Below the pieces are notes generated by a model. The model worked only from the letters and a program-made list of their open reading frames with translations. It was not told where the DNA came from and did no database searches. The translations under genes and the position numbers were made by a program. A stretch of DNA of 64,000 nt from Eopsaltria australis (taxonomy: Eukaryota > Chordata > Aves > Passeriformes > Petroicidae): contig JAVTVJ010001238.1 of assembly GCA_034509425.1 (NCBI GenBank), positions 1 through 64,000 of the forward strand, written 5' to 3'. Shown here one piece after another: positions 10,881 to 36,814 of the stretch (position 1 is the first letter of the stretch; the number at the start of each line of letters is the position of its first letter).

Positions 10881-10980
10881 GCTCCAGCCGGTCCCTCCAG
10901 TCCTGTCCCTGGGCACCAGAGTGAAGAGGTTCCCACAGCCCCAGCCACAGACCCGCTCCCAAGGCTGCTGCCATGGCAGC

Positions 10981-11567
10981 CAGGGTTGGAATCAGCTGTG
11001 ATTCTCAGATTCCAAGGGCTGGGATTCGGGAATGGGATTCCCCAATTTTCTGCTCTCACTAAAACTGCACTGCCACTCGCTCCCCTCCCCCTCCCATGGA
11101 AAGCACAAAAGGCAAAGATCCCGGGCTGGGATAAGAACAATTTACTGGGAACTGCAACGGGATAAGGAACAAAGAGGAACAGCAACAATATTGATAACAG
11201 AAGGGACAAGACAAACAAATTAATTACAGGCAAAACTGGGGAAACACTGACCCGATCTTCCTGACCCTGATTATTCTTCCATCCAGAAAGGAAACCCTTC
11301 TCCTTGGGAGAGTCCCTTTCCCTGTCCCTGCAAATGACCTGAGACAAGATTGAATATAATGATGGGGGCATGGCCAGATCCTCATGTTCTTTGATTCCAC
11401 CTCAAACCACTGCCAGCGGCAGGGAAAGGGACAGGTGTCTTTCCAATGTGGAGCACAGGGAATGTTGGTCACCAAGGCTCTGCCCAACGTGGGTCCTCTG
11501 ATGGGGGATCGAAGTTGAAGCAGCAGATGTAGCTTTTCCTGCAGTCATGGCACTCACAGGACTTCCC
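10981..11567 (-). other. 3' flank of zinc-finger gene with relict finger
   Basis: Downstream of the stop of the left zinc-finger gene, about 11,490-11,567 still reads as a damaged seventh C2H2 finger (CHDC then KSYICC) out of frame. Further down, a conserved block around 11,110-11,230 is shared with the right arm and carries an AGTAAA element that could serve as a polyadenylation signal. No other gene is seen. Confidence 0.5.
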
Positions 11568-12560
11568 TTATGGGTGGCTCCGTTGGTGTCTGGTCAAGGT
11601 AGAGCTGCTGGAGAAGCTCTTTCCACACTGGGGACACTTGTAGGGCCTCTCCCCGGTGTGGACGCGCCGATGGGTGAGGAGGACGGAGTTTTGCTTGAAG
11701 CCCTTCCCGCAGTCGTGGCAGCGGAATGGCCTCTCCTCACTGTGAATCCGCTGGTGCAGGAGGAGATTGGAACTGGTCTGAAACCTCTTCCCACACTCAG
11801 GACACTCGTAAGGCCTCTCCCCTGTGTGGATGCGTCGGTGGACGATCAGGTGGGAGCTCTGGCTGAAGCTCTTGCCACATTCCAAACACTCGTAGGGCCG
11901 TTCTCCAGTGTGGATGTTCTGATGGATGAGAAGGCTGGAGATGCTGATGAAGCCCTTCCCACATTCCCCACACTCATAGGGCCGTTCCCCAGTGTGGATC
12001 ATCTGGTGACGAATCAGGTGGGATCTCCAGCTGAAGCTCTTCTCACACTGCAAGCACTTGTAGGGTTTCTCCCTAGTGTGAAGCTGTTCATGGACCACCA
12101 GCTCTGAGCACTGGCTCGATCTCCAGCCGCCTTCCTGGCACAAGGTGGCTCTTTCCTCCTTGGAGCACCCTGGGCTGGCTTTGGAGCCCCTCCTCCTGCG
12201 GGATCTCCCGGGCTTTTCCTCTATGTTGGATTCCTGCACCATGGAGCTGATCAAAAGGGCCTCTTCCATGAGGTTCTGCTCTGGGGATTTGTCCTTCCTG
12301 GTCTCCATCCTCAGCCCGGTGTCTGGTGGAGGAACAACAAGGAGAGGATGGGATTTCCCTCTGTGCCAGAGGGAAGGGGAAGGAGATGCCCCCAATGCGT
12401 CCCCGGCAGGACGGCGTCGGCTGCGGGGTTGTCCTGCAGCCGTGGGTGATCCTGGGCTGAGAGATGAAGCAGGAGAGAGGGGGAAAGGGGCACTGACTTC
12501 CTCCTCACCTGCCTGGCTGTCCTGAGACATCTTCCTCTTCCTCACAGCCTCCTTCTCCAT
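11568..12560 (-). CDS. C2H2 zinc-finger protein, left-arm copy
   Basis: A probable nuclear DNA-binding factor of the poly-C2H2 type expanded in passerines. The ATG at 12,560 follows a splice-acceptor-like site (CCAG before 12,587). The frame passes through a likely 186-bp intron: donor GTGAGG at 12,508 and acceptor CCACCAG ending 12,323. Spliced length would be 268 residues. An acidic, charged N-terminal part is followed by six C2H2 fingers joined by [13 protein letters not shown] linkers. The last is KCPQCGKSF to the HQRSH end, then a stop at 11,568. Neither KRAB nor SCAN is seen. Target unknown. The solo LTR just upstream may contribute regulation. Upstream 5' exons may exist. Compared with the right-arm copy, differences cluster in the DNA-contact helices. 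Confidence 0.75.
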
Positions 12561-12689
12561 CTGGCCAAGATTTGGGAATGAGAAATCCTGGTTTCGGGGG
12601 AAAACAAGGGATGAGCACAAAGAGTTTGAAAGTCCCTCTGTTTCGTCCCTCTCTAGAAGTCACCAGGCATCTGGGGTTCTGTACTAGTT

Positions 12690-13221
12690 TGAAAGCAAAC
12701 CAGTGAGATATTCCAAGCCAGAACAAAAACCTAATAGGAAAATTAAAATAAAGACAGAAAACTCTGGCTTAAACTGGCAGAGTTAGGGTATGACCTGACA
12801 CGCTGTTGGTCAGGGTTGTGGTAGCAGTCTGATGGTGACTGCAGTCATCTTGGAGTGACAAATGTGATTCTATCAAGGCGGTGATCCTGTAGTGAAGTCT
12901 GGTCCTGTTCTGGAGGTCCAGTGGTGATTATGGAGCTCTTGTCCTCTGGGAATCCAGTGGATAGTGCTGCCCATGATGTTGCAAACCTCACCTTATATCC
13001 AGGTAGCAATGCTTGGTTCCTCCCCCTGGCTGGAGCATCTCACAATGGGATGATGTCATTTTGTGAGTCATGCAGTGAGGTTTGATGGGCCATTAGCAGA
13101 AGATTGCCCCTGCAGGGAGTTATCAGGGATGACTCATGGAAGAGATAAAGAACACTGCCCCACCTGTTTCTAACAACTTCTAAAGATGGTGATAGAATAC
13201 ATACTTTTGGTAACCTAAGGC
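12690..13221 (-). repeat. Solo LTR (family A), left arm
   Basis: A retroviral LTR-like block whose 3' end (TTTGCTTTCA at 12,690) matches exactly the point where similarity to the LTR at 31,919 and 61,451 stops. It contains a TATA-like GATATAAG (about 13,000) and 'CCCATTGTGAGATGCTCCAGCC'. The 5' edge is uncertain. It lies 130 bp upstream of the zinc-finger ATG, in the same transcriptional direction. Confidence 0.7.
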
Positions 13222-13520
13222 TGTGGGGTAACCCCTACTCAGGGGCAGTCAACACCACCCCCCTTACCCAGACTGGCTCAGGTGTGAAACCCCCACCCCG
13301 TGAAGGCCAGACACACCCAGGGGACAGTGTCACACCTGCCCCTCCCCAGGAGAGGTCTCTGTCCTTGTCACTCTCTTGCTCTCCCCCTCTTTTTCTTTCC
13401 ATCTCTCTCTCTACCTTACATTTACTGATCAATTAAATCCACACCAATTACTTTGGATTTGGTCTTGTTAGCACATTAATTGGGGCAGAGATGACCCTCT
13501 AAATATTTTAATAACCAGAT
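13222..13520 (-). repeat. Second LTR-like repeat (family B), left arm
   Basis: A GA-rich tract and the block 'GGTGGGGGTTTCACACC...GAGCAGTCTGGG' resemble the segment 27,760-28,340 and are mirrored at 60,600-60,917. It is probably another ERV-derived sequence. No gene is seen. Confidence 0.45.
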
Positions 13521-14279
13521 TGTGACAATATTTTGGCACAGTGGGTGCAGGGCTCTGTTCCCTGAATCCAAGTACCTTTGACAGCACTGTTCCTCCTCTG
13601 GGGAGGTTGTGCTTCTTTCTGGAGGAACCCTTGGAAACTTGGACGCAGCTTCCTCTGAGAGGGGTGTGAGAGAACTTGTGGGGGAAATGGCTGTCGTGGG
13701 TGGGCAGTGTAAAGAAAATATTTTGTTGTCCTTCCTGGAAAAATTTGTAAAAATAAAGAGAGGAAATGTTACCAGTGGGACTGACAAGGGTCATTCATTG
13801 CCCCAGGGGGAGGAGCACAAACATCCTCCAAGAAGCCCAGCACAAGGAGCTAAAGCACTCCCAAATTCACAGCCTGGAAGGCTTTGCCAGATGTGAGAAT
13901 CATTTATCTCTTTGTGCCTATCACCTTTGTGACAGCTACACACAGTTTTCCCTTCCTTTTAATAATTGGATTTTGCAAAATTTTTGTTTTTCCATTATTG
14001 GAACCTGCCAGCAGCTGAGCTGGAGCTGTGCGGGAACTGATGAAACTGTGAATTGCCACCATAATTGATTGTATTGTCAGTTTAATGCTTGTATTAATGT
14101 CTGGGATTTGTCTCTGATCTCATCACAAGTGACTTGTGGGAAGAGCAAATATTGCTCAAAGCTTTTTATGTAGAGTTAGATTTGATTTCTGCCAAGTTTA
14201 TTTTTTCTGCTGCCAGGGGGATGCCCAAGAGGTCCCCATGCCTTTCACCTTGGGGGAGGCTTAGGAGGGGATTTGGAGG
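13521..14279. other. Unassigned DNA, left arm
   Basis: No gene is recognised. The open frames at 13,468-13,896 have diverged counterparts at about 60,221-60,713, but stops and indels differ and no family is seen. Confidence 0.35.
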
Positions 14280-14640
14280 GGTTGTCCCTGTCCCTCTCAC
14301 CCCAGGCCATTCCCCGGTAGGTCTCCATCATTCTCACCCCAGGGGATGCTCAGGGGTCTCACTCCCTCTCACCCCAGGGGATGCTCAGGGGAGTCTCTGT
14401 CCCCCTTGCCCTGGGGGATGCTCGGGGGGTCTCAATCCCTCTCACCTCAGGGAGTGCTTGTGCAGGGCTGGGGACCAGGGGCTTTGTGTCCCTCTCACCG
14501 CTGAGTGTGCTCAGGGGCTGGGGGGCTCTCTGACCTTCTCACACCTGGGAAGGCTGGGGTGTCTCTGTCCCTCTCACACCTGGCGTGACCCCACCCAGAC
14601 ATCATTGGGGTGAGAGGGACAGAGACACCCCCAAACCCCC
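14280..14640. repeat. 36-45 bp degenerate minisatellite, left arm
   Basis: Repeated 'CCCTCTCACCCCAGGGGATGCTCAGGGG' at about 14,297, 14,333, 14,368, 14,407 and 14,440, with later diverged units. It is mirrored at 59,520-59,890. Confidence 0.75.
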
Positions 14641-14900
14641 AGAAGGGGTAAATGTGGGGTTTGGGTTGGGATTGAGGATTTAGGAAGGGCTTGGAATTGG
14701 GGCTGGGGTTGGAGTTAGGGCTGAGATTTGCATTCGAGTTGGGATTGAGGTTAATTCTAAACATGGGATTGGCTTTAGAGCTGGGGTTTGGATAGGGTCT
14801 TGGGCCAGACAAGTCAGGGGCTGGGATGAGATTAAATACGGGACTGTGAGTGTGTCTAAATGTAGAGTGAGATTGAGATCAGGATCAGGGTTAGCTTTGG
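14641..14900. repeat. GGGTTT-like degenerate simple repeat, left arm
   Basis: G/T-rich plus strand with recurring GGGTTGGG, GGGGTTGG and GGATTGAGG motifs. It looks like a degraded telomere-like or minisatellite tract and is mirrored as C/A-rich sequence at 59,300-59,520. It is non-coding. Confidence 0.5.
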
Positions 14901-15149
14901 CACTGAGCGCATGCAGGGTGGGACAGCTGAGATGTCACTGCAGGATGTCCCTGGCATGGTCCCAGCCCTCCTCAGGCACCTCCAAACATGGGGGGCAGCT
15001 GGGTGCTCCAAGATCCAGGGGCTCCCACGCTGCCCCTCAATACCAGGCGAGCATTCCGTGAAGGCAGCCCTGCCTGTGACCCTTGGGGATCTGGGATCAG
15101 CCATCACACCCCTGTGGGGGCAGCTACAGAGACGATGACAGATTTACCC

Positions 15150-15690
15150 CCCCACCCTGCTTCCTATCCATTTCAATCCCAAATTCCCCATTTTCATCTC
15201 CAAATCACTCATTTGAATCCTAAAATTCCCAGTTTTAACCTGTAATCCCCACTTTTCCCAAGAGATTTCCCATTTTCACACCAAACTTGCATTTTCCTCC
15301 TAAACCAGAACCTTCCACCCAAAAATTCCTATTTTTCAGCCACAAATCATCCCAAAATCATCTTTTATCCCTCAAACCCCCATTTCAATCCCCAATTCTC
15401 TAATTTTTTCACATAATCTTGATTTTGTTCCGAAATTGTAAATTTTGCTGAAATATATCCTTTTTTACCTCAAAAATTGCTTATTTCAGTCCAAAATTTC
15501 CTATTCCCCCCCCAATTATTCCATTTTGACTCCAAACCGCCGAAGTCAACACCAAAATCATCAGTGTAGCTCCAAAATCTCATTTTTTCACCCCAAGAAT
15601 CTGAAATTCACTCCATAATGACTTTTTCACCCCAAAATTTCCTGGTTTTCTCCAAAATTGAGCTTTTTGCGACAAAATGTCCATTTTTAT
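15150..15690. repeat. CCAAAATTCCCATTTT-type repeat, left arm
   Basis: Many imperfect copies of a roughly 20-bp motif with CCAAAAT and CCATTTT alternation. It is mirrored at 58,490-58,990. Low complexity, with no coding potential. Confidence 0.75.
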
Positions 15691-16599
15691 GGAAGGTTGA
15701 AGCCCAGCTGCCCTTTTCTTCTGGTGCCGCCTCATCTCCTCCCCTGAGGATGTCAAACTCACCAGGAGCAGGACAATTCCCATTCCGTCTTTCCTTGTGT
15801 CTGCAGCCTGGAACATCCACTCAGAACAAAGCACTTTCTGAAAGCCCTGCGGAATGACATCAGAAGGAGGTTTGTGAGAAAGGGAGGAAAGTGTATTTTG
15901 ATAGGAAATGAAAGTTTCAGAATGATTGATTCCTGTCCCATTCATTTTCAGTCATTTCCAGGTCTGTTTTCAGAGTGCCACCTTCTCAGCTGATTGTGTT
16001 TGTGTCCTCCTTTCTCTCCTGCCTTTCTTTGCCTGCTCTCTTTCTCTCTCAGTGTCTCTCCTGACCCAGGACAGCTCCCACCAAAGATCCTCCCCTCATT
16101 TAATTCCCAATCCAGGAGCTAAAACGACCATGGATGAAGCTCTGAAGGCTGGCACTGAAATGTCCCTGTAAGATCGTGCTGCAATTGACTTTTGGCCCCT
16201 TCTTGAGAGCTTTGCCTTCAAGGGCAGGAACATCTTTTCCTTGCTGGGAACTGGCATTCCAGAGCCTTGGAGTGTGTGCCATGGATGCCAGAGGGGCATT
16301 CCCGAGGCTGGTCCTGCCGTGCCTCCCAAGGGAGCTGTGCAGGGCCAGGGCACAAGGTCCAGCAGCCGTGGGGGCTCCCAGAGCAGAGTGCAAAGGTGGC
16401 TTTGCTGGACATTTTCCAGCACATTCCCAGCTGGAAGCAGAGGGAAGAAGGAAAGAGAAGCGAGTCCCTGACAGAATCATGAAATGATTGGGGTGGGAGG
16501 AGACTCTGCTCATGGGTGACTTGGCTGAAAGCCAAGTGCAGCCAGCTCTTACAATGACATTTCCCTGGCAGCCTGTGCTGGTGACAGCAGCAGGGCGCC
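15691..16599. other. Unassigned DNA, left arm
   Basis: No gene is recognised. Long open frames (for example 16,100-16,627 minus) have counterparts in the right arm (57,514-58,041), but the composition is unremarkable and no domain is seen. Both frames surviving in two copies is weak evidence at most. Confidence 0.35.
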
Positions 16600-16990
16600 A
16601 GTTTAGCACTCTGTGAGTGTAACCCAACTGTGCATTCTACTCCCCTTATCTCATTTCTGATGAGCTGTTCATGATGAGTCGTTTGCAGGAGCTGCCCAGT
16701 TCCCCCCAGACCCCTCGGGTTACAGCTGAATGTTAAAAGAGATAAGGAAGGAGAGGCAAACCCTGGGAGGCAGGGCAGTGTTTCTTTTCCTTCACACCGA
16801 TGACTCAGCTCTGATAACTCTCTCCAGGGAAGCACCAGCACAGTCCCACTCAGCCTGGGGGGATCATCTCTGCTAATGGGCCAGCATGGGCTCAATGGCA
16901 CCAGCACAATGGGCAGCTGCAAGGACTGAGACCATCAAGGACTCCCAAAATATCCCACCACTTAAAACCAGCACAGTGTTTAAGAGCTTT
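16600..16990 (+). repeat. LTR-family-A-like fragment, left arm
   Basis: About 16,760-16,900 resembles the core of LTR family A: GGCAGTGTTTCTTTTCC, GATGACTCAGCTCTGATAACT and CTGCTAATGGGCCAG. It is mirrored at 57,150-57,540. It is diverged and its ends are not defined. Confidence 0.45.
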
Positions 16991-17341
16991 TTGCAGTCAT
17001 CATACACTTGGTGACTTCTGAAGATGGATTTGTGCAGGAGGAACTCTCAAACACAACATAAAGTGGGGTAAGTAAGCCCTTGGACCAACTCCAATAGTTT
17101 GACCCAGGAGTGGGTTACTGCTGTTATAAATGCATATTACAGTGTTGGGTTTTCACAAATAATGAATGCTGTGTGTATGATGTTGTTCCTTGAGGAGGTG
17201 GCTTTTGTTATAGAAATATAATCACTTTTAAATGCTTTAATGCCTTTTTGTTCTAGCTTAGATGCAGTGGCTAATGTAGCTGTGTTAAAATGGACCTAGC
17301 TTAAAAGAATTAAAGCACCTGCTTAGTTGGATAAGCATGGG

Positions 17342-17764
17342 TGTAACAGGCTCCTGCCCCAGGACATCTCTATCGACAATAACCATCTGCTGGACATCTC
17401 TATCGACAATAACCATCTGCTGGACACCGACGGACAAAAGAAGATCTTGGAGTCTCCAAAGAAACTCCGCATGCTCTAAAAAGGCGGACCCAAGGAGGAG
17501 CCATGCTAACGAGTACTTGGGAAATGTAAAATAGCTTGGAGAAAAGTTTGAATATGTATACTTGTCTATGAATATGGAACAGGCTGATGCAATAAGAAAA
17601 GTATAGAAAGAGAGTCTCTCACCATGTCAGGCGTGCTCTTGCCTCCGTGCCAAGGGTTCCCGGCGTCACCTGGACGTTGTAACCTTTTACCCTATACCTT
17701 GTCCCTTCTTGTCCTTTTATTAACCCTTTAAATTTTACCAGGAGCCCGGAGCTCGTGTTTAACA
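17342..17764 (+). repeat. LTR-like element with 30-bp internal duplication, left arm
   Basis: Starts TGTAACAGG and ends GTTTAACA, giving inverted-repeat-like ends. It contains a perfect tandem duplication of a 30-bp unit (GGACATCTCTATCGACAATA plus ACCATCTGCT) near 17,367-17,426. AGCAT flanks both sides closely, which may be a target duplication. It is mirrored at 56,378-56,799. Probably a solo LTR. Identity and edges are uncertain. Confidence 0.5.
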
Positions 17765-18420
17765 TTCAGCATTTCTTGTTTGGCCTCAGTTTTGCCCTCG
17801 CTGCCCGCGCCGCCTTTCAGGGCCCGCGCGCGGCCGAGGCCGCCCCGCCCTCCCCGCTCGGGCCCGGCGGTGGCGCGGAGCATCACGGGAAAGACTTTTC
17901 CCGCCGCCGCCCGGGGCCCTCAGGCGCGGGTGGCGGCGGCGGGGCCGGGAGAGGAGGAGGCTGCGCGGGGGCAGCGAGCGCGTTCGGCGAGCAGGGGGAG
18001 CCGGGCACGGCTGAGGCTGGCCACGGGCTGCGGGCGCTGCCGGGCCACGCGCGGGGTCTCTTTGCCAAGGACATTTCTGGGTGCGTCGCTTGGAGTCTTT
18101 TGCCTTGCTGCCGTTTGTCGCACGCCGGCGCCGCTTCTTCTTCAAGCCCGCGGCGGGGCCGAGCAGGAGCGCAGCGGGGCGAGGGAGTGAGGCAGCAATG
18201 AAGGCGGGAGGCGGGGCAGGGGCACGGCGGCTTTGGAGAGCCGGGCCCCGGCCTTCGAGAGATGCCGCTGCTGCCTGTGCGGGCACAGGGCGGGGGGCAG
18301 GAAGTGCGGCGGCTCCCAGAGACTCCCTCCTTCCCTCCCCGGGAGCCGTGGGGCGCGGTGAGGCGCAGGGGAGGGGCAGTGGCGGTGGCGAGGGTGAGGG
18401 AGAGAGGAGGATGATTAAAG
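17765..18420. promoter_or_regulatory. CpG island, left arm
   Basis: An abrupt 0.65-kb GC- and CpG-rich block with runs such as GCCCGCGCGCGGCCGAGGCC, in contrast to AT-richer neighbours. It is mirrored at 55,721-56,377. It looks like a promoter CpG island. The open frames on both strands (proline, alanine and arginine rich) are composition artefacts. No downstream exon is recognised, so the transcript it might serve is unknown. Confidence 0.6.
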
Positions 18421-18424
18421 AGGC

Positions 18425-19460
18425 TTGAGATGTCACCGTGTGACTGCTCCTGACCTGTCTTTGGCAGCCCAGAGTCTTCTAGGATGTGAGCATGGAGCGC
18501 CTGTCACTGCCAGTGACCTCCTGGCTCCTTGGAAGCCCCGGAGAGCCCTGCGATGTCACCATGGAAGGCGTGTGAGGCTCATGCAGGTGAGCTTGGGGCT
18601 CTTGAAAAACCTGACTCTCTCTGGGATGTGAGGGTGGGATCCTTGGGAGGGTCTGTGACCTGAGTGCTCTTGAGCAGTTTAGAGAAAGCTGGGATGTCCC
18701 CATGGAACTGTTGTCCCTGCTGGTGCCGTCAGAGTTCTTGAGCAGCCTAGAGACACATGGCATGTCAGCCCAGAGCTGCTGCCATTGCCTGGGATCTCCC
18801 TGATCTTTAGGAGCACAGCAGCCGCTGGCATGTCACAGTGGAAGCCCTGGGAGTGCCTGTGACAAAGCCCTTCTTTAGCAGCCTGGAGAGCCCTGGCATG
18901 TCCCTGTGGAGTCCCTGTAACAGCGTGGGACCTCATGGTTCTTTTGCAGCCTTCAACAGCCTGGCAATGTCACCACAGAGCTGCTGGGAGTGCCTGTGAC
19001 AAGACAACTTTTTCCCATCATGGAGACTTCTAGGATGTCAGCGTGGAAGCCGTGTGAGTGCCTGTGACATGGCAGCTGCTTAGCAGCCTAGAGACACTTG
19101 TGATGTTGGCATTGAGAGCCTGTGACAGCCTGTGAGGTCAGTGTGGTTTGGCAAATGGGAGACTCCTGGGATGTCCCCATGGAGCCCCTGGGATTGCCCA
19201 TGACCTCAGTGTTGTTTAGGATCATGGAGAGCACTGGGATGTCACCCTAGAAGCTGAGTGAGTGCCTATGCCAAATGGGCTCCTTAAGATGTAGAGAGCC
19301 CTGTGTTGTCCTCATGGACAGTGGTGACTGCGTGTGACCTGCCAAGTCGTTGGAAGATGCAAGAGCTCTGGAATGTCCCAGTGGATGGCCTGTGCCTGTG
19401 TGTGATCTGGACTTTTGAGCAGGCTGGAGACAAGTCCGATGTCAGCATGGACTGGAGTGG
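18425..19460. repeat. 68-bp minisatellite array, left arm
   Basis: About 15 diverged units, each with a (G)GATGTC(A/C)CCATGGA-type core, at 18,483, 18,552, 18,624, 18,693, 18,761, 18,829, 18,897, 18,966, 19,034, 19,102, 19,170, 19,238, 19,305, 19,372 and 19,438. Spacing is 66-72 bp, mostly 68. It is mirrored at 54,690-55,720. Non-coding. Confidence 0.88.
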
Positions 19461-19889
19461 GGGGTGGTGGTTCAGGGAGGTAAGGCTGGGGGAGGAACGT
19501 GTGGCAGGGCTGGCTTGGAGCCGCTCAGGCTCTGGGTGAGCAGGGACAGCACCAGAACCCAGGCCTGGGAAACACTCGTGTCCCCCCCTGGCCAAGTCCG
19601 GTCACGGGCAGCAGGTCTGCCCTCCATTGGGATGGGAGGTCACGTCACCCCAGTGGGACAGGGGACCAGGTGTACCCCCTGTCCCCAGCATGCCAAATCT
19701 GGTCAGGGAAGGCCAGGTCTACTCCCTGGGCTCTCAGACATGGTCTGCCTGCTGCTGCCATGGGAGGCCTTCCCTCCTCTCCCGGTCAGGCCAGGTCTGC
19801 TCACCAAAACACTGGCAGTAGTGGTATTTCAGCGATGGCCTGGATTCCAACAGGGGATCACCCCACAGTGGCTGCTGACTGTACACCAG
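19461..19889. other. Unassigned DNA, left arm
   Basis: GC-rich sequence mirrored at 54,253-54,690 with few differences. Long frames on several strands are present in both arms, but no domain is recognised. Confidence 0.35.
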
Positions 19890-20031
19890 GCTCTACAGGG
19901 TCTTCTTTCCCCACTGAGTCCACCAAGCCTGTTCCCTTAGCTCTGGTTTCACTGGTTAGTCGGTAGGGACAGTGGGAATCTTGTCCATCCATTCATGTGC
20001 ATGATTAATGAGATGACGAGGCATTTGGCTA
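19890..20031 (-). pseudogene. 28S rRNA fragment downstream of R2 copy D, left arm
   Basis: About 141 bp of 28S rRNA gene beginning at the R2 insertion point (TAGCCAAATGCCTCGTCATC on the minus strand) and ending near the GACCCTGTTGAGC block. It is diverged from true 28S by several substitutions and a small deletion. It marks the 3' junction of the old R2 copy D. Confidence 0.85.
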
Positions 20032-21202
20032 TTTGGTAGATATTTCTTCATATATATTTATATGTATGTCTCTTCCTGGGTTAAGTGTAGGTGGCCCATG
20101 CACCTTGGTCAGATCCAGTACAATTTGGTCCTGATGAAGGGTTGAACATAGGTGGCCTGTCCTGGCTGCTTTGCTCACTTCTGTCTGTAAATGCTATTCC
20201 TCCTTGAGGCAGGTCTAGTTGTTAGATCCTCATCCAGCTCGGGCTATCTGGCCAAACCTTCCCACTGGGTGTAAAGATGGAAACTCTCATCAGTCTGTAC
20301 CCAAGAGTTACAAAACTCCAACCTCACTAAATCAGCCTTCTCTTGCAGCAGTGTAGAGGGTGCAGGTGTAAAATGTATGGCCAGGACTTCCTTCAAATCT
20401 GAAGGATCAGTTGATGTGGCCGTTCATACATGGAATAATCGTATGGACTGCACCATTGTGCACATTTGTGGGTTTAGTCAGTCCAGTTGAGGGTGGTCTA
20501 AGTCAGCAGCAGATGCTCAGCTACTGTTGAGCTGTGTTGATCTAATGCCCATGGAGCAGGCTCTGGGTAGTGAGGTCCTTAAAGGTGCTACCAAAACATT
20601 GATTTCACCTTTTTGTGAAGCTGTTGCTTGGTGGCGAGTCCAAATGATGGGAAGGGGTGTCGCAGTAGAGACGGACACACGACACACTCATAATCCAAGG
20701 ACAGAAAAGTTTTTTATTATTCCCTGTTAGTAGTTTTATAGCTTTTTCTCAGCTACTGTGGTTTGTTCTGATTGGCTGCTTAGCAAACAATGACAGGGCT
20801 GTCTGCAACACAAGGACCATTGAAACAGCAATTCAATTAGCTGTAGAAGCAATTAGTTCCATATTGTAATCAAGTTCCTTCTGGTACACTCTTGATGTTC
20901 CACAGCAGTAACATCTCCTTGTGTGAAGAACATCTACTTTGATTATCTTCTTGGCTGTCAAGGTGGCTTTCATTGTGGCTGCAGGTTGTCACGGAGTTTT
21001 CTCATGGGTAGATTTTGACTGTTTTTAAGTCAGCCTCTGTGAGGCTTTCAGACCAAGTGTCAGCCTCATCAAAGCCCATCAAGGGGTATCTGTTCCCACC
21101 TCTCTCACACTGGGGCAGAAGTCGACTCAGTGAGTGTGAGGGTGTCTGGTGGGAGCAGTGCAACTTCCATGGCAAGGCCCCATTAGTAACTATGCTCCCA
21201 TA
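20032..21202 (-). mobile_element. R2 retrotransposon copy D (internally deleted), left arm
   Basis: An old R2. Its 5' leader (21,202-21,087, TAGTTACTAAC and CCCCAGTGTGAG blocks) matches that of copy A. The leader resumes after a solo LTR. The start of the ORF (minus strand from about 20,456, MVQS then an LVRLEF block) aligns with copy A's N-terminus for about 70 codons, with stops. The zinc-finger, RT and endonuclease regions are deleted. The 3' UTR (about 20,140-20,032, GGGCCACCTACACTTAACCC) is followed directly by 28S. It is incapable of movement by itself. Confidence 0.8.
20658..21081 (-). repeat. Solo LTR inside R2 copy D, left arm
   Basis: A 424-bp LTR beginning TGATGGGC and ending GCGACA. 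It is flanked by a perfect 5-bp target duplication (CCCCT on the minus strand, at 21,082-21,086 and 20,653-20,657). It has a CTATAAAAC TATA box and an AATAAAAAA polyadenylation signal shortly downstream. It splits the leader of R2 copy D. A 5-bp duplication fits ERVL-type insertion. The family is not named. Confidence 0.85.
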
Positions 21203-21287
21203 GTTTGCTGGATAGGAGGTAGGGACAGAGGGAATCTCTTTCATCCATTTGTGAGCATCACTAATTAGATGACGAGGCATTTGGCTG
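21203..21287 (-). pseudogene. 85-bp 28S fragment between R2 copies C and D, left arm
   Basis: Starts at the R2 target (GCCAAATGCCTCGTCATCTA) and ends in the CTATCCAGCAAAC block, where it passes straight into the 5' end of R2 copy D. It therefore holds only 28S sequence lying downstream of the insertion site. Confidence 0.85.
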
Positions 21288-21345
21288 TTTTTGAACACCT
21301 CTAAGTACTGTATGTTCCTTTTCCAGGTTAAGTATAGGTGGGGTG
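21288..21345 (-). mobile_element. R2 copy C 3' UTR tail, left arm
   Basis: Only the last part of an R2 3' UTR is recognisable (CCTATACTTAACCTGGAAAA on the minus strand, matching CCTTCACTTAACCCGGAAAA of copy A), ending at the 28S junction. The body is missing or unrecognisable. Confidence 0.7.
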
Positions 21346-22401
21346 GGGGTTCAGCTCTGGGCTCTTCCCCCTTGGCTTCCTGTTCCTGAGGGAATCCTCA
21401 TTAGCTCCTTTCCCTCCTGTGACTGATATGCTCAAATCCAGAGGGTCACCACATCTGAGCTGAGGTCACAAGCCCAAATCTGTGCTGCCCCATGCAGGTG
21501 TTTCAGTTCCTTTGGAGTTTTTCAATTCCATGGCTTCCTGTTCCTCTGCATACACAGGTGAGCAGCTGGCATCTAACAAAGGGGAGAGAAGGGAGGGCTG
21601 CAGAGGCTCTGGTGACAGGGGAGAGCAGGGGAAGATCTGCCCTCTGCCCAGCCCTGCGCTCGCTCCCCTGGCACAGCCTTCCCATGCAGCTCGTGGCTGG
21701 AGGGTGCCCAGCAGAGGAGCTGCTGTGCTGGAGCACGGCGTGGAGGGGAAAGCCCCAGTGCCCCGGGCTGAGGAAGGTGCTGGCAGATGGACAGGAAAGG
21801 TGCAGCATCCACTGTCACCGAAACCCGGGAAATAAACTGTCCAAATAGTTGGAGAGGTTAGAGAGCTGACATTCCTTTATCAGCAGTGCTGGATGCATGG
21901 GGACTTCTCCTCAAAGCATGCATGCTGAGACCAAGGTTTATATTCCTGAAACTAATACTTAGTCATCACTCTTTTGAATCCATGCATCTATGCTAATTAT
22001 TTCCATGGGCTTGTTTGGATATGGTTCCAGGTGTTCTTCTGATGAGTCTTTTCTCCTTGAGAGTATCTCAAATATCAAGTATTGATGGACTTCTCTTACC
22101 ATTCTTTCTTCTGACAGCCAGCCCTCCTTCTCAAATCTAAGACAGCAGCTCATACATATGAATCACTGATGCAAGGAACCAAGGACATCTTAGGTGGAAC
22201 GCGACTTCTTAGTGACAGACGTAGGGAGTTAGCACAAGGCCACACTGATCTCTGGCATTTGTACTGAGCCCTGTAGGTACAAAACCAACAGGGTCCCTCA
22301 CTCACCCGTCTGCAGGGGCTGCAGCGTGGGCACCTTTGGGGGGCTCTGCTGGGGAGATGCTTTCCTGGGGAGCCCTGTGCTCCTCCCAGGCCACCTGGCT
22401 G
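21346..22401 (-). repeat. Three-copy intervening segment, left arm
   Basis: Sequence between R2 copies B and C, repeated at 37,651-38,700 and 51,741-52,795. It includes an AATAAAGGAATGTCAGC polyadenylation-like stretch and GC-rich frames that persist in all three copies (about 118 codons at 21,492-21,848 and counterparts), but no domain is recognised. It could be part of an LTR or a host sequence captured between R2 units. Confidence 0.5.
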
Positions 22402-23166
22402 TCACATCCACCATGAATGCCTTCTCCTCTTTAACAAAGATTAAATCCAGTTTAAATAATTCATTGTCCTCATCCCTAAGGTATTGTTCCTAGGAAACAG
22501 TCCAGTTCTCCTTCTTAGCGTCACACCTAGGGGTCTCTCAGATGGAATTGTGTCATTTCATCCTGGCATCCTGAGTAATTGGGCAGTTTCCAATGGTATG
22601 GGCGGAAGTCTCAAACTCAGTGCCACAATGCCTGCAGGATCTCACGCAGTCTCCATGTCTACCCCTTGCCAGGAACTCTCTTGTAGGGTAGACGTTGGCT
22701 CTCAATGGAAGCACGGTAATCAACTTGCTGTGAGGTATGCCTCTGTAGGGTGTTATCCATCCATTACTGATCTTATCATTCTCAGAGTTCTCAATACCAT
22801 GGCCCTGGGCAACCAGCTGTTTGCATTTCTGGAACTCGGTCTTCTGCCAATTGCAAGGTCTTGGATAGCGGAATTTTTGGACTGGTGCCTCCCATTCTGA
22901 CAAACCTTCATCACCACCCACCACACTCTCCAGTTTTGGAATAGGTTCCCAAATTTGCGGGATGGACTCTTTATTTCCTCCAGCTCAAACCCACAATTCC
23001 TCATACAACAGTTCCAGACGATCACCTTTCAAAAATGCCACAGGAGCCTCATCCAAAGGCTGCGCAAGTCTATGCAGGCTCCGCACTTTTATGCTGGGAA
23101 TAAGCACCACCAATTTCAAGATACCTAATCCCCCATCTTTACAACTAGAGTACAAGATCTTGTCAC
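22402..23166 (-). mobile_element. R2 copy B, 5'-truncated, left arm
   Basis: A distinct, older R2 lineage. It begins abruptly at the region after the RT (SCKDGGLGILKLVV), continues through the linker and the CCHC motif (CRHCGTEFETSAH...GNC), and ends within the restriction-like endonuclease (PDLIF...AFMVDVT). It lacks the endonuclease end and the 3' UTR. Related to copy A but clearly diverged. Frames are broken. Confidence 0.85.
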
Positions 23167-23190
23167 TTGGCACTGCTGAGCACGCCCCCG

Positions 23191-23234
23191 GCCTCCCACT
23201 TATTCTACACCTCTCATGTCTCTTCCCAGCGCCA

Positions 23235-23268
<34 letters not shown>

Positions 23269-23388
23269 TGCTGATTCCGCCAAGCCCATTCCCTTGGCTG
23301 AGGTTTTGCTGGATAGTAGGTAGGGACAGTGGGAATCTCATTCATCCATTCATGCACATCACTAATTAGATGATGAAGCATTTGCCTA
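23191..23388 (-). pseudogene. 28S rRNA fragment downstream of R2 copy A, left arm
   Basis: 198 bp of 28S from the R2 target site (minus strand, 23,388) to GTAGAATAAGTGGGAGGC. It differs from the copy at 50,752 by roughly seven substitutions. The right and spacer copies look closer to a functional 28S. Divergent sequence and then R2 copy B follow immediately. Confidence 0.9.
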
Positions 23389-26300
23389 TCTAATAAACAT
23401 ACTAAATGCATATGTTTGTTTTCCGGGTTAAGTGAAGCTGTCCCGTCCAACTTGTCCAGATCGGAATTTGTAATGCCTAAATACGGGCGGGTGACACAGT
23501 ATGAGCAGAATGAAAAGCCCCACTGGTGTCCACCCCTCCTTATCCTTGATGAAACGTCACATGCCAATTCTTATTTATTTTACAATTTCAAGAACAATGG
23601 ATCGAGCTTGGCTGGTAAAAATATGTACAATATCTACAGAGGATAGGAGCGCTCTGGATGCTAGGATCTTCTCTAGCCTCGTTTTAGAGAGGCCGAGGGC
23701 CAATAGCAACTCAGAGTTCTTTTCGTACCACTTTCCCCGCGCCCCCAAGGGAAGGCCCACAAAGTCCACAACAATGGCATTAGTCAGCTCTTCCACCTGG
23801 TTGAGGAGGCGCTGATATTTTATTACCTTCTCAGCCGCCGCATCCTTCAAAGAGGAGTTGCTGTGCTCATATCTGACTGTCACGTTCACCACAATTGCCT
23901 TTTCTTCCTTAACAAAGATTAAATCCGGTTTGACAATTCTTTATCCTCATCTCTGATATGTGGCTCCTGGAAAACAATCCAATTCTCCTTAGCCTCACGG
24001 CTAAGGATTTCAAGGATGGGATTGTGATGTTTGATCCTGGCATCTTGAATAATTGGACAGTTCCCAATAATGTGGGCGGTAGTCTCAAACTCAGCACCAC
24101 AATGTCTGCAGGATCGTATGCAGTCACTGTGCCTACCCCTCGCCAGGAACTCTCTTGTGGGGTAGACATTGGCCCTCAGTTGAAGTGCGGTTATCAGTTC
24201 CTGTGGGGTATGCCTTTATAGCGTGTTATCCACCCATTACTGATTTTATCGTTCTCAAAGTTCTCGACTCCATGGCCCTGGGCAACCAGCTGTTTCCATT
24301 TCTGGAACTCTATCTTCCGCCAATTACAAGGTCTCGGGTAGCGGAATTTTTGGACTGGTGCCTCCCACTCCGACAATTCTTCATCCCCACTCACCACACT
24401 CTCCAAACGTGGAATAGGCTCCCAGATTTGCAGGATGGACTCCTTCACTCCTCCAGCTCTTACTCACGACTTTTCGTACAACGAGTCCAGATGACTGTCT
24501 TTCAAAAATACTTTAAGAGTTTCATCCAAAGACTGTGCAAGTCGATGCAGCCTCCGCGCCTGGATACTGGGAATGTGCGCCGCCAATTTCAGGATACCTA
24601 ATCCACCGTCCTTACAGCTGGAATACAAAATACCATCACACGTAGAAGGTGGAAGATGAAGCCACCCTTTAACTGCAGTTCGAATTTGCAAGTCAAGGGA
24701 TTCTAGGAGCACCGCTGTCACCTTGGTGTGGTCAGCCAGATATACCAATCTCTGGATGGTATAAGTCCTTAGTATATCCACCTTCTGAAGAGGTTTAAGT
24801 GTTGCTTCCCCTATCTGTTGGAGCCATTTCTCTAATTTTCCAGGCAGACCTGGGTCCACAAAGCCAGTCCAGGGGTCTACCCAAGTGCCAAAATATTTCT
24901 CAGAGTGTCCAGAATCAATCATATTGAGGGGGGTGCCACCTATAGTCCATATAGGACAATCGTTGATGGTATACGCATCTTTTGTGGCTTTGATGTAAAA
25001 GCCATGACATTTCTCCCCCTGTGTTTTGAGACCGGTAAGATCGCAAAAGGCCTCCAAAATTTTGATGTTATCCTGCATACCATCCCAGGAGTCACTCAAT
25101 AACACAAGGTCATCAGCAAAGGCCATGGCCATAATTTTCATCCCACCATGATGGAACCCTTTTCCCTTTTGTTCCAGCTTACATAGAAGAGGATCGATAG
25201 CAAGGTTGAATAACAAAGGTGACATAGGATCGCCTTGCTTGACACCTGTAAGGATCTTAATGGGGTCTGTCTGACCATTTTTGGTAGTAATGCACGTTGT
25301 GATGTTCTCGTACATTTAACCAATTAGATGGATCAGATGGGGTCAAGCCCCTCTGTTCAAGACCCTTAATAATATGCCGATGGCATACTGTGTCAAATGC
25401 TTTGGCAATGTCTACAAAAACCACCCCAAGGTCTTTGTGCTCCGACTTTGCGTATTTAACCACAAGCTGTAATAGCTTGAGGTTTTCGGAACACCCAGAT
25501 GCACGAATGAACCCCCGCTGTCTGGGGTGAATCGGACACGCTCGGTCCAGCCTAGCCATCAAAATCCTAGAGAACAACCTAAGCACCATAGAGGCTATGG
25601 TGATAGGTCTCCAGTTATTGACGTCCCGAAGTGTCTCCAGATCAGAGGACTTGGGAATCAGGACAGTCCGGCATGTCCTTAGTGCATCCGGAATTGTTCC
25701 TGTCACGAGCCAGAGGTTGAAGCTGTTACTCAACAGGGAATACTTTGGGTCCCATTTTTTAAGATGACCCACCGTAAACCCATCCAGCCCTGGAGCTGAG
25801 GTCCTCTTAACCTCCTTCAAGTTCTTTTCAACCTCTTTTTCTGTAATGAGAGCCCAAAACATGGTGTTATCAGCTTCCTTATATGAAGGGAAGGGTTCAA
25901 GGCCCTTGAACTCAGCAGATGACTCCCATCTCGCTTTAAAATTTGAGTAGACAATGTCAGATGGAATATCGCATTGCAAGGCGTCCGAGTTATCCGAAAT
26001 AACCCTTGCCAATCTCCCCGTGAGTAAGTCAAGCAATTTCTGATAACACAGATATTTCCCACGCTTCTTAGCTCTTTTTCGCATCCAATTAGCTGTTTTT
26101 CTGCATGCCTTTTGGCTCTGAGACCTTTGTGATCTTGAACCCCTGGATTTAATCTGGCTTAGCAAACTCAAGTCTCCGAAACATTCCTCATAACAATCAT
26201 TCACCACTTTCTGCGGGTCTTCCCCTTCCAAAATACTCTCAAAAGCCCGTTTACACCTGGTGAATCTGCCTGCCGACAACCCCTTGTTGATGGAATCCCA

Positions 26301-27593
26301 ATAATGGAGCTTCAAATGTCCCTCTTTTGGCAAAGAAACCACCTGGGCTTGGTCTTCTGTGCCCTCTTGGAGTACGCCTTCCTCTCCAGTTGTGACCACA
26401 TCTGAGGGACTCTTCATAAGAAGGCACCTTTTATCACTGATTTGCTTTGTTTTCTTAGATGGAATATGCTCCGCAGTCAGCTTATTTTAATATTCCTGTT
26501 TCCAGCGTATGTCACCATCAGGCGTTTCAATAGGGCTAATTCCTCCTCAGTCCACACCTTATTGTGGGCTCCTCTCAAAGATGACTCTTTTGGATGGGAG
26601 GCAGCAATCCTCTCCAGGTTCCTCCCAAGAGGATGCATTGACCTCTTGTATTGGCCCAGCCCAATTTTGGTCGGGAACCCTTTCTGACAAACTTCACACA
26701 CCCACGTGCCCGTAGGAACCACACAAACCTCCCCTTTGCAAGGTGGGACATGGCAGACAATACTGTGGTACTTCAGATTTTGTTTACCACATTTGGAGCA
26801 CTTAAACCAGATCTTTTTCTGCCTATGCGCACGTTGGAGATGGTCAATAAGTCCCAGCATCCTTGTAAACCGGGTAGCACAGAGTGGACAAGATGGAGTT
26901 TTGTCCGGGACGGACAGCACAGGTGTCACAGCTGGTGTCACACCCTCCCTGCTCCGGGGAGGAGCTTCTGGTGTGTTGGGCTCCTCACCATCCCCTTGGG
27001 CACTGTCATTTCCCACGCTTATAGGAGGCCCAGGTGGCAAGGCCTCAAATGGCTCTGGGAATTTGGCCAATTCCTCCCTTACATTTGCCAGATTGATCCC
27101 CGGTTCATAACCGAATTTGGAGTTAACAAACTCCAAGTTCACTAGATGGAGCCCAACATCCTCAGATTGGGAGGCCGGAGATGGCACAACGTTGGCCGAT
27201 TTGACCCTGTGATCCAAAGGGTCTGTTTGCGTGCCCGTAGATATGAACCTTAGCCCGAGCGATTGCACCATTGTCAAATCAAAAGTTCAAGTAAAGGACA
27301 GTCCAAGTGAGGGTAGTTTCAGTCAGTAGCTGGCCCTCTCCAGACTACCAACTTTGCCCAACTTAGCCTGTGGACAAGGCTTTAGGAACAGCGACAGAAC
27401 TGAACCAAAAAATTTCGTTTCTGCAGGATCGTGAAACTACCGCTGGGTGGCAAGTCCAGACGATAGGGAGGGTAGATAGTATCCCTCACTCACACTGGGG
27501 CGGAAGCCGACTTAGTTACCCAAAGGGTATCCAGCGGGACCACGTGGAGGTGCAGCTTCCACGGTTGAGCCCAGTTAGTAACTATGCCCTCAT
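23389..27593 (-). mobile_element. R2 non-LTR retrotransposon copy A, near full length
   Basis: A 4.2-kb R2 inserted at the canonical 28S site, with both junctions visible. The ORF starts around the ATG at 27,271. It has C2H2 finger CPLCATRFTRM..HLQRAH, a second CxxC finger, a third CEVCQKGF..H, and a Myb-like WTEEELALLKRL, so it is of the multi-finger (R2-A) type. The RT has PGLDGFTVGHL, FVDIAKAFDTV and catalytic FADD. The C-terminus has a CCHC motif and restriction-like endonuclease residues (PD then VDVTVRYE). It would act by target-primed reverse transcription in the nucleolus. It is dead: frameshifts lie near 26,470 and 25,320 and around 24,190-23,940. The 3' UTR ends at 23,389. Confidence 0.93.
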
Positions 27594-27748
27594 CTTAAGA
27601 GAGTCATAGTTACTCCCGCCATTTACCCGCGCTTCATTGAATTTCTTCAACTTTGACATTCAGAGCACTGGGCAGAAATCCCATCGCATCAACACTCGCC
27701 TTGGGCCTTCGCGATGCTTTGTTTTAATTAAACAGTCGGATTCCCCTG
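27594..27748 (-). pseudogene. 28S rRNA fragment upstream of R2 copy A
   Basis: 155 bp of 28S on the minus strand: GGGGAATCCGACTGTTTAAT, the GCATCGCGAAGG block, and GGAGTAACTATGACTCTCTTAAG at the junction. True 28S reads CTTAAGG before the R2 site, so one or two G residues were lost at the 5' junction, as is usual for R2. It is the only upstream 28S piece in the window. There is no counterpart on the right because the provirus cuts R2 there. Confidence 0.93.
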
Positions 27749-28602: not shown

Positions 28603-30687
28603 TGACAAGGGCAGAGCTGGGTTTCCTGCTGCAGCATGCCAGGCACAGCCCAAGGCAGCTCCCTGGGCCAGGCTCTGCTGCAGGGCTGAGCAGCCGGGGC
28701 TGCAGCCAGGGCTGCCCCGGGCTGTCCTGCAGAGCAGGCTCCTGCAGCCCAGGCCGCTGTGCTGGGCCAGGGACTCTGCTGCCTGCCAGGGGCAGCTCTC
28801 AGCCGGCCCGGGGAGCTGCTGCCAGTGCTGGCGGAGAAGCTCTGGGGGGAAGGAGCCACCCTGAGCAGGGCACCTGCTGCTGCTGCTGCTGAGAGGGGCT
28901 GTGTGGGCCAGGGCTGCTCCCTGCTCCACACCAGCCTGGGCACAGCTCTGCAGGACACTTCCCAAAAGAAGGGAAGCCAGGGATTGCTGTCAAGATCAGC
29001 AGCTTTCCTGAGACTGTTTTCAATTTCCTACTTGGAGCAAGGTTGGAAAGTTGGGTGATGGCAAAAAGATTTTTTCTTTTTATGCGTATTCATTTATTCT
29101 TAGCTCTGGAAATTACTATGATATATTTCTATAACTATAATCCTTCATTAACTCTAATACATTCCCAACCCTTTCTCTTCAAGTTTAGAACAATGAAATT
29201 ATCATCTAAAGACTTTCCTGAAATATTGTATAGTCTCATTGTCAGGAAGAGGACCTCCAAGAAGAACATTTTGTTTTGTAAGCAGAATCTGAGCAGTCAT
29301 AACATAAAGTGGGGTAAAGAAGCCCTTGGACCAAGTCCAATAGTTTGAGCCAGGAGTGGGTGACTGGGGCAACTGAATCTGCTATTGGATTTTCCTGTTA
29401 GATATCCTAATTAATCAACCTTATCAAATTGTTGAAATCAGGGCCTGGGTGTTCCCCATCACCATCAGGACACCTGGAAGCTTCCAATAAAGGTTTGTTT
29501 TTTACTTTACTCTTCTCTCACTGTTGCAAGAGGTTTTTTTCTCTTTTGATTAGAGGCAAGAGGGGAATGAGAGAAGCAGAACAGGAGTTGCAATCAGATC
29601 CTCACAGAACATTGTGAGTTGAAAGGTACACACCAGGATCATCAAAGTCATGTTGGAACATTTGCTCCAACTCCAGATCTGCACCTTTGGGTGCTCAGTC
29701 TCTCTGCTGGGAGCCTCCTAAAGCTCCTTCAGCCCCTCCTCAGCCCATGCACAGCAGCAGCAGCACCTCTGCAGGCCCAGCAGGGCTCTCCTGAGCTGCC
29801 TTTGCCCACCTGCACACAGAGCCTGCCCCAGCCAGGGCCCTGCACACAGGCAGGTTTCTGTAGGGCCGGGCCGAGGGCACACAGGGTGGGATGGGCTCTG
29901 TGAGTGCTGGCAGGGACAAGGCAGCTGTCAGGAGGAAATGTCCAGGCCCAGGGAGATGCTGAGGGAAGGAGAGGAAGCTGAAGAGAGCAGTGCTGGGGGC
30001 ACGAGGGCACTGTTGGTGTGTGGGAGGTGCCGTGCACAGCTGGGCACAGGAACAGTGTCCTGAGTGCCTGGCTGTCCCTGCCCTGCCCTCTCAGGCACAG
30101 CACCACAACATCTTCTCTTGTTTCTGCATTCCCCTGATACTGTCACTGTGATCTGGGGCTCTCAGGGAGGCTCTGGCATTTGCAGCAGCTGAGTCAGGCA
30201 GTGGCCTTGGGATTCCTGCCAGGCAGGGCTGTCCATGGCAATGGGGTATCCAAGCTTCCCTGGCACCTGTGGGGCTGTGGGCAAAGCAGTCCATGGCAAA
30301 GGGGAATGAGCTGAGCCTCCCTCCCTGAGATCCCATCATGGGCACCCCCAGGGATCTCCTTGCTGTGTCCTCCCAAGCTCTGAGCTGCCCTCCTGGCTGC
30401 AAATCTGTGCCACAGCCTCTCGCAGTTCCCTGAATGTCCCACGGGGAAGGGCAGAGATGCCTCAGGTGAGGAAATGCTGTTGGGTTTGCCAAGGGAGCCG
30501 TGAGTGTCCTTGGCAGAAGGGGGTGCTGAGACCTTGCTCAGACACCTTCAGAGAGGGGGAGACATTCAGGGCTCCCTCTGCTCTGGGCAGGCTCTGCTTT
30601 ATCCCAGGGTGACCTGGGAGTGTGATTGTGCTCTGATTGCAGCCAAAGGTGCAAACCCAGGGCACTTGGCAACAAGCCCATGCAGCC
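28603..30687 (-). repeat. Inverted copy of the 3.9-6.0 kb module
   Basis: Reverse complement of 3,873-5,959, of almost the same length (2,085 versus 2,087 bp), with scattered substitutions and a shortened (CAG)n run. It ends at 30,687 (GCCCATGCAGCC), where ERV integrase sequence starts without a visible spacer. Non-coding. Confidence 0.88.
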
Positions 30688-31269
30688 ACTGGATGGGTGG
30701 AGACTCATGCTGTGCCTCATGCTACCTCCCGAAACACCATCTTAGACCTGGACAAGCAAGTCTTGTGGAGACATGGCACCCCTGAGAGAATTGAGTCGGA
30801 CAACGGGACCCATTTCAAGAATGGCCTTATAAACAGCTGGGCCAGAGAACATGGCATCGAGTGGATATATCATATCCCTTATCATGCCCCAGCTGCCGGG
30901 AAAGTTGAACGGTGCAACGGACTACTTAAGACCACCCTGAAGGCCCTTGGCAGGGGCACCTTCAAATATTGGGAAATGAACTTAGCAAAGGCCACCTGGA
31001 TGGTCAACACACGAGGCTCCATCATTCGAGCTGGTCCTGCCCAGTCTGAACCCTTGCACACAGTGGACGGAGATAGGATCCCTGTGGTACACATGAGAGG
31101 TATTTTAGGAAAGACTGTTTGCATTAGTCCCACCCCAGACAAAGGCAAACCCATCCGCGGGGTTGTTTTTGGTCAAGGACCTGATTACACTTGGTGGGTA
31201 ATGCAGAGAGATGGAGAAACCCATTGTGTACCACAAGGAAACTTAATTTTAAGTGAGAACTGTGTGTAA
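30688..31269 (+). pseudogene. ERV integrase fragment (env-less ERV pol 3' end)
   Basis: The C-terminal half of a retroviral integrase. It shows catalytic Asp in ESDNGTHFK and Glu in APAAGKVERCNGLLK, then a C-terminal part ending LILSENCV and a stop at 31,267. The first catalytic Asp and zinc-binding part are missing because the fragment is cut at the duplication junction at 30,688. A polypurine-like AAAGGGGG lies 35 bp after the stop, leaving no room for env, as in ERVL-like elements. The remaining frame is open, but it has no promoter or start of its own. Confidence 0.8.
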
Positions 31270-34352: not shown

Positions 34353-34666
34353 ATGAGGTGCCAACCAAACCATAAGAAAAGGGAGAAAAAAATCATGCAT
34401 CAGAAGAAAGACAATTCAATCGGGGAAAAACACAAAGTGAAGAAAAAAACCCAGACAAACAAACAAAAAACCAAAACCAAAGCAAAACCCACCTCCAAAA
34501 CCACAAAATCCCCACAAACAAATCAACCACACATCAACCACAAAAACAAAGGCCAGAAACAGAAGAAAAGCAAATGCACAGGTAATCTCCAATCAGCAGA
34601 AAATGTCGCAGGATTCTGTATATGTAGATGTTGTTCTGAAAGAAAAAATTCTTCACAAACAAATTA
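34353..34666. repeat. A-rich, CCAAAAC-type tract
   Basis: A-rich plus strand with repeated ACAAAC and CCAAAACC words from 34,440 to 34,560. It is low complexity and ends where the duplicated module starts. Confidence 0.5.
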
Positions 34667-35667
34667 ATGCAGAAAGGCATTTGAGCAGCTGCACTCCCAG
34701 GTCTAAAGGACATGGAGAACAGGGAGGAGATGGAGGCAATATTTTCCCTACCCACACATCATTCCTGGTTCTCTGAGGTCAGAAATCCCCAGCATTTCTG
34801 CTGCACTCCGAGTTTGCCGCTGAGAGAGGGGAGAAGCAAAGGATTCCCTGTGGCTGAGGGAAGGTGAGGGGCTGCATGGGCTTGTTCCCATGTGCCCTGG
34901 GTTTGCACCTTTGGCTGCAATCAGAGCACAATCACACTCCCAGGTCACCCTGGGATAAAGCAGAGCCTGCCCAGAGCAGAGGGAGCCCTGAATGTCTCCC
35001 CCTCTCTGAAGGTGTCTCAGCAAGGTCTCAGCACCCCCGTCTGCCAAGGACACTCACGGCTCCCTTGGCAAACCCAACAGCATTTCCTCAGCTGTGGCAT
35101 CTCTGCCCTTCCCCGTGGGACATTCAGGGAACTGCGAGAGGCTGTGGCACAGATTTGCAGGCAGGAGAGCAGCTCAGAGCTTGGGAGGACACAGCAAGGA
35201 GATCCCTGGGGGTGCCCATGATGGGATCTCAGGGAGGGAGGCTCAGCTCATTCCCCTTTGCCATGGACTGCTTTGCCCACAGCCCCACAGGTGCCAGGGA
35301 AGCTTGGACACCCCATTGCCATGGACAGCCCTGCCTGGCAGGAATCCCAAGGTCACTGCCTGACTCAGCTGCTGCGAATGCCAGAGCCTCCCTGAGAGCC
35401 CCAGATCACAGTGACAATATCAGGGGAGTGCAGAAAGAAGAGAAGATGTTGTGGTGCTGTGCCTGCCTGAGAGGGCAGGGCAGGGACAGCCGGGCACTCA
35501 GGACACTGTTCCTGTGCCCAGCTGTGCACGGCACCTCCCACACACCAACAGTGCCCTCGTGTCCCCAGCACTGCTCTCTTCAGCTCCCTCTCCTTCCCTC
35601 AGCATCTCCCTGGGCCTGGACATTTCCTCCTGACAGCTGCCTTGTCCATGCCAGCGCTCACAGAGCC
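34667..35667 (+). repeat. Direct copy of 3.7-4.7 kb module
   Basis: Matches 3,669-4,667 in the same orientation and length. It ends at CTCACAGAGCC (35,667) and passes within 3 bp into R2 sequence. It also forms an inverted pair with 29,900-30,687 in the spacer. Confidence 0.88.
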
Positions 35668-35670
35668 GAA

Positions 35671-36660: not shown

Positions 36661-36776
36661 TAGCCAAATGCCTCGTCATCTAATTAGTGATGTGCATGAA
36701 TGGATGAATGAGATTCCCACTGTCCCTACCTACTATCCAGCGAAACCTCAGCCAAGGGAACGGGCTTGGTGGAATC

Positions 36777-36814
<38 letters not shown>

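Follow-up and report, generated by a model that had tools for sequence, protein, structure and literature searches.

A chain of R2 retrotransposon pieces, separated by short fragments of the 28S rRNA gene, lies in a 64,000-nucleotide stretch of the Eopsaltria australis genome (positions 1 to 64,000 of contig JAVTVJ010001238.1, hereafter the window). How did such a chain arise outside a working 28S gene? A sequence-only reading of the window had proposed either template jumping between R2-28S RNAs or the drastic collapse of an rDNA array loaded with R2, and had raised the prospect that R2 can spread or persist by a previously undescribed route. The order of the pieces in that reading, all in one direction on the minus strand, was confirmed with coordinates, as was its statement that each R2 3′ end joins 28S at the same target base.

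Organisation of the chain

Read along the minus strand, the chain opens with ∼154 bp of 28S from upstream of the R2 site (28S-up, 27594-27747), which falls within an Rfam LSU match at 27525-27747 (138.3 bits) and gives a 146-bp BLAST match at 95.2%. R2 A follows at full length, with a broken reading frame (23389-27593; E = 7.3e-131 to R2 proteins in the PDB), and leads into 199 bp of downstream 28S, +1 to +199 (23190-23388; 93.5% identity, E = 1.8e-83). The 28S reference for these identities and for the decay counts below is a human sequence, which may be wrong for this bird at single positions. R2 B (22395-23158) is an internal piece corresponding to R2 A nt ∼2965-3723, with 80.1% identity to R2 A. 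The stretch after B (21468-22394), partly LTR-like by eye, is followed by nt 4-131 from the 5′-end of 28S (21340-21467; 79.7%, E = 7.7e-28), which is fused to R2 C. Only the 3′ tail of C is present (∼21288-21339), recognised by its resemblance over a short length to R2 A nt 4155-4184 (80%) and by its junction with 28S at the target base. The 28S after C runs for 84 bp, +1 to +84 (21204-21287; 90.4% over +2 to +84, E = 1.5e-27), and meets R2 D (20032-21203), which comprises R2 nt 1 to ∼570, an insert at 20657-21098 that is without match and LTR-like by eye, and a 3′ tail, with matches to R2 A nt 2-111, 123-296, 448-475, and 4133-4175. Beyond D are 145 bp of 28S, +1 to +145 (19887-20031; 87.6%, E = 1.2e-47), and then colinear, decayed 28S from ∼+257 to +432 (19667-19840), which scores above all 300 shuffles (26.4 in this copy and 28.4 in the right copy, against shuffle maxima of 20.0 and 21.3 from 300 shuffles of each arm). 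The 28S pieces in the window, with E-values from 1.5e-27 to 5.6e-90, are far beyond chance.

The elements belong to the avian A-clade of R2 by protein similarity. A protein piece of R2 A matches PDB entries 9nl3 (E = 7.3e-131) and R2Tg, 9dou (E = 1.1e-130), the right copy shares 71% identity with R2Tg across 262 residues of the reverse transcriptase (RT) segment, and close named R2 proteins come from Zosterops, Turdus, and Haemorhous. At their 3′ ends, A, C, and D all join 28S at +1, and the 5′ junction of A lies at the insertion site; B has no element end, so the fixed target base rests on A, C, and D. Neither A nor B is free of stops in any frame, and in each arm of the inverted repeat described below R2 A falls into three long open frames. 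The first of these, of 266 residues, has the same terminal residues in both arms, and R2 A had therefore probably lost its function by the time the arms were duplicated. The pieces are also unlike one another, with A and B 80-82% identical and A and D 57-71% where they can be aligned. At the 5′-end of R2 A, a match to a ribozyme fell short of significance (12.7 bits against a cut-off of 37, E = 8.3).

The sequence-only reading held that no other rDNA was present, which is contradicted by the 5′-end of 28S between B and C and by the 28S that continues past D to ∼+430; both are rDNA other than the flanks of the target site. Nucleotides 4-131 of 28S recur in all four copies of the chain (79.7% in the left copy L and 78.9% in copies M, R, and K; E = 7.7e-28 to 3.3e-26 in L, M, and R), and in the two window copies other than the left one they carry Rfam LSU matches of 58 bits, continuing into an LTR, and 32 bits. 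Of the 1.05 kb that the same reading had called unknown, the end is thus 28S fused to the C tail, while the remainder (21468-22394) has no R2 match better than E = 0.11, a 17-bp hit that we set aside as weak.

Piecewise Rfam scans of the window, together with BLAST using rRNA query sequences, gave no convincing 18S, 5.8S, or middle 28S; positions 38800-46700, most of a provirus, were covered by whole-window Rfam scans only, and the contig past the window by BLAST with rRNA queries only. The 138-bit LSU match at 27525-27747 was missed by the whole-window Rfam scans and found by a 10-kb scan, so absence from a whole-window scan is weak evidence. Matches to 18S at E = 0.13 and 0.44, to middle 28S at E = 0.15, and to LSU at 22.6 bits over D and the D-side 28S were set aside as weak, and matches to microRNA families as far under their cut-offs. 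Searches for a 28S word in viral contigs and for an R2-tail/28S pattern in prokaryote genome contigs returned 0 matches.

Copies of the chain on the contig

The chain is present three times in the window, in two inverted arms (L and R) and a partial copy (M), and a fourth time (K) on the same contig. The right-arm chain spans 46744-54475 on the plus strand. It begins with R2 A from nt ∼203 (46744-50751; 97.0% to the left R2 A) and continues through the 28S downstream of A, +1 to +198 (50752-50949; 96.0%, E = 5.6e-90), R2 B (50982-51745; 81.7% to R2 A), the 5′-end of 28S (52672-52799; 78.9%, E = 3.3e-26, with the 32-bit LSU match at 52694-52773), the 28S after the C tail, +1 to +84 (52853-52936; 90.5%, E = 4.3e-28), R2 D, recognised by its matches to R2 A (52937-54111), and the 28S downstream of D, clear from +1 to +145 and then decayed to ∼+432 (54112-54475; 87.6%, E = 1.5e-46). 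Copy M (35668-38724, plus strand; 97.0% to the left copy) holds the end of R2 A, 28S at 36661-36858, B at 36891-37655, the 5′-end of 28S at 38584-38711, and the start of the C tail. Copy K (contig positions 71645-75033, ∼7.6 kb past the window end) is truncated on both sides by other sequence that is LTR-like by eye. Among the copies of the chain, only the left one carries 28S-up.

Over the stretch common to all four, L, M, R, and K are 96.3-97.3% identical in pairs, and a longer alignment of three gives 97.15% for L-M, 96.75% for L-R, and 97.48% for M-R. The 28S-B junction and the junction of the 28S 5′-end with the C tail are found in four copies, the junction of the C-side 28S with D in three (L, R, and K), and that of D with its downstream 28S in two (L and R). 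The copies extend into flanking DNA: positions 10364-27392 pair with 63798-46744 as an inverted repeat (94.9% over 17,096 columns), with an extra block at 10002-10204, and the pairing extends to 8973 and 65033 when the whole contig of 143,056 bases is considered. The extra copies include flanking DNA and are products of segmental duplication, once with inversion, in which the chain was copied as a passenger. Given this and the broken frame of R2 A, the proposal of an undescribed mode of R2 spread is not supported.

Further direct and inverted copies of ∼97% lie around the middle of the window (3667-5960, 28608-30690, and 34665-35667), so the locus has undergone repeated rearrangement. Both arms of the inverted repeat contain zinc-finger-like open frames (11568-12620 and 61582-62595) and, just outside the D-side 28S, a degenerate tandem repeat with a unit of ∼200 bp (18621-19337 and 54802-55522).

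Copies M and R are bridged by a provirus (38725-46743, plus strand) with long open frames and LTRs at 38725-39088 and 46385-46743 that are 97.25% alike. No target-site duplication flanks it: the 6 bp on the left, within the C tail, are CTTAAC, and those on the right, within the 5′ UTR of A, are GCTGTT. These flanks would fit recombination between two proviruses, each sitting in its own copy of the chain.

Decay of the 28S pieces and origin of the chain

The 28S sequence is nearly invariant in working genes, and differences from it that several copies share should therefore date to before the copies split. Counting differences common to L, R, and K, the 28S downstream of A has 0/83 and that downstream of C 7/83 (Fisher p = 0.014, uncorrected); counting those common to L and R over 145 positions, the 28S downstream of A has 4/145 and that downstream of D 14/145 (p = 0.026, uncorrected). 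When only L and R are compared over 83 positions, the counts are 4 for A, 7 for C, and 7 for D (p = 0.53 for A against C and for A against D), the C and D pieces being equally decayed at 7/83 each. A majority-rule count gives p = 0.10 for A against D, 0.07 for A against C and D together, and 0.53 for A against C. With the fourth copy included, the contrast between A and C became sharper, the two-copy counts being unchanged, and unequal decay appears in two of the five comparisons of shared differences. Three differences downstream of A, at 159, 161, and 163, lie within five bases, are common to all four copies, and may be the host's own 28S. In the left copy, 28S-up (8/147) is similar to the 28S downstream of A (13/198; p = 0.82, uncorrected) and less decayed than that downstream of D (18/145; p = 0.04, uncorrected). 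With moderate support, these counts suggest that the C-side 28S had decayed by the time the copies split and the A-side 28S hardly at all, an inequality that is weaker or absent in other sets of copies.

We consider the chain to be, with a probability of roughly 60%, the collapsed fossil of several tandem rDNA units interrupted by R2 and later duplicated as a block. Collapse of an array fits the 28S 5′-end found between B and C, the extended 28S that follows D, the single orientation and target base, and the younger A side, and is the part of the sequence-only reading that is supported. In such a history, a short run of tandem rDNA units, with R2 at the usual site in several of the 28S genes, would have lost by deletion nearly everything but the R2 pieces and the adjoining 28S. 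A point against this history is that no 18S, 5.8S, or middle 28S turned up in the pieces searched, which requires the deletions to have been near total. The C-D side would have decayed first, while the 28S beside A is still close to 28S. The D side may accordingly have been the first to leave concerted evolution, with the inner unit homogenised longest at what we infer to have been the edge of the array. The block, situated in DNA rich in transposable elements, would then have been multiplied by segmental duplication, once with inversion, to give the four copies on the contig.

An assembly artefact is the least probable of the other explanations, and a very remote one. rDNA assembles poorly, and an exact search for the canonical 28S target word across the 1,171,865,568 bases of the host assembly returned 0 matches. 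Misassembly is nevertheless improbable, given that copies 2.5-3.7% apart have their inner junctions in common, that neither the window nor the contig contains an N, and that the 28S pieces are individually decayed. Template jumping, in which the R2 RT would run off the 5′-end of a 28S-tailed R2 RNA onto another R2-28S RNA and so build, by a single integration, the whole chain or at a minimum its C-28S-D part, is a more serious contender that we still regard as unlikely. Avian R2 proteins do make such jumps in vitro and endonuclease-dead ones yield head-to-tail repeats (accessible text of PMC11371274), jumps onto other RNAs are reported in flies (accessible text of PMC3414825), the C and D pieces of 28S are equally decayed, and D begins at the exact 5′-end of R2, separated from 28S ∼+84 by one or two additional bases. 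A concatemer drawn from one RNA pool should be of one age, however, and here the A-side 28S is less decayed than the C and D pieces (more weakly so in some counts), while the R2 pieces differ by 18-43%. The end-to-end junction at D also has no counterpart at B, where 28S meets the middle of R2, or at the C tail, which is joined to the 28S 5′-end. Template jumping was therefore set aside for the whole chain, and one template-jumping event is disfavoured, although a jump may account for the C-28S-D junction.

Somewhat less probable still is stepwise re-insertion, in which later 28S-tailed R2 RNAs would have entered at the 5′ boundary of an older R2, or in the adjoining orphan 28S fragment, and the youngest element would be the outermost on the 5′ side. 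The least decayed 28S does flank A, and A itself resembles an ordinary insertion into a 28S piece from ∼-154 to +199; tandem R1 arrays in Drosophila are built by re-insertion next to a resident R1, at its 5′-end (accessible text of PMC2718515). This history predicts a 28S-up as old as the D side, in conflict with the lower decay of 28S-up in the left copy, and it leaves the 28S 5′-end unexplained. Avian R2, moreover, requires rRNA directly downstream for primer pairing, as far as the accessible text of PMC11371274 goes.

Within the collapsed-array reading, one junction stands out. D starts at the same R2 base as A, and this exact 5′-end would be poorly accounted for by random deletion. The C-28S-D junction may instead record an insertion of D that was coupled to the loss of upstream rDNA, or a template jump, and the extra CT found there may be a few leftover bases of 28S-up. 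Large rDNA deletions upstream of R2 have been linked to the element in Drosophila (accessible text of PMC3414825; PMC2637433), and such a loss could place a 28S tail next to an exact R2 5′-end; old, stable R2 copies are also described, perhaps at array edges (accessible text of PMC2637433). The exact 5′-end of D beside 28S ∼+84 thus prompts the idea, tentative and on balance rather doubtful, that this locus preserves, as a fossil, the edge of a former bird nucleolus organiser which R2 itself helped to erode, where the 5′-end of a new R2 was joined to the 28S tail of the upstream unit, the intervening rDNA was lost, and the debris was spread by segmental duplication. The order of the deletions and any role of the R2 endonuclease are, like the former array edge, inferences. 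Were R2-driven collapse correct, the locus would be a vertebrate case with its debris dispersed by segmental duplication. An insertion of D with upstream deletion would extend the R2-linked rDNA deletions of flies, here read from a fossil junction in a bird, to birds, and R2-coupled deletion in birds would bear on the use of avian R2 proteins as tools for gene insertion.

Related R2 and R1 arrangements

As it stands, the locus is an unusual yet explicable rDNA remnant; an R2 and rDNA remnant is a known category, here in an unusual form. The nearest likeness is to degraded R2 copies of birds that are flanked by fragments of 28S (Kojima et al., 2016; accessible text of PMC5035012), which share the broken A-clade R2, the short 28S flanks, and the position outside a working 28S gene, and among which R2-2_MUn of the budgerigar is internally deleted, as is D. 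The present locus differs from those copies, as far as they are described there, in having a run of several R2 remnants separated by 28S, a 28S 5′-end, and duplication as a block. Tandem R1 arrays in Drosophila likewise place elements head to tail with intervening 28S, and R1 can carry downstream 28S; they stand at the R1 site, mostly within rDNA, and have a constant 14-bp spacer from target duplication (accessible text of PMC2718515), whereas the elements here are R2 and the 28S spacers measure 199, 84, and at least 145 bp. D retains the 5′-end and 3′ tail of R2 with most of the interior gone, as does an R2 SIDE in the descriptions available, but D is one decayed locus and gives no sign of mobility in this form. 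In the open-access literature searched, as far as its text was accessible, we found no account of block duplication of an R2-28S-R2 chain. The locus offers a fossil of R2-laden rDNA outside the working array, in which four copies separate older from newer mutations.

The elements also bear on the history of R2 in songbirds. In a FastTree phylogeny of 12 sequences, the R2 of the right copy (48676-49476) groups with those of Turdus and Haemorhous (support 0.96), apart from a group of R2Tg with that of Acridotheres (support 0.94). A single R2 lineage was inferred for birds by Kojima et al. (2016; accessible text of PMC5035012); our tree, a small alignment of partial sequences, hints that songbirds may have two.
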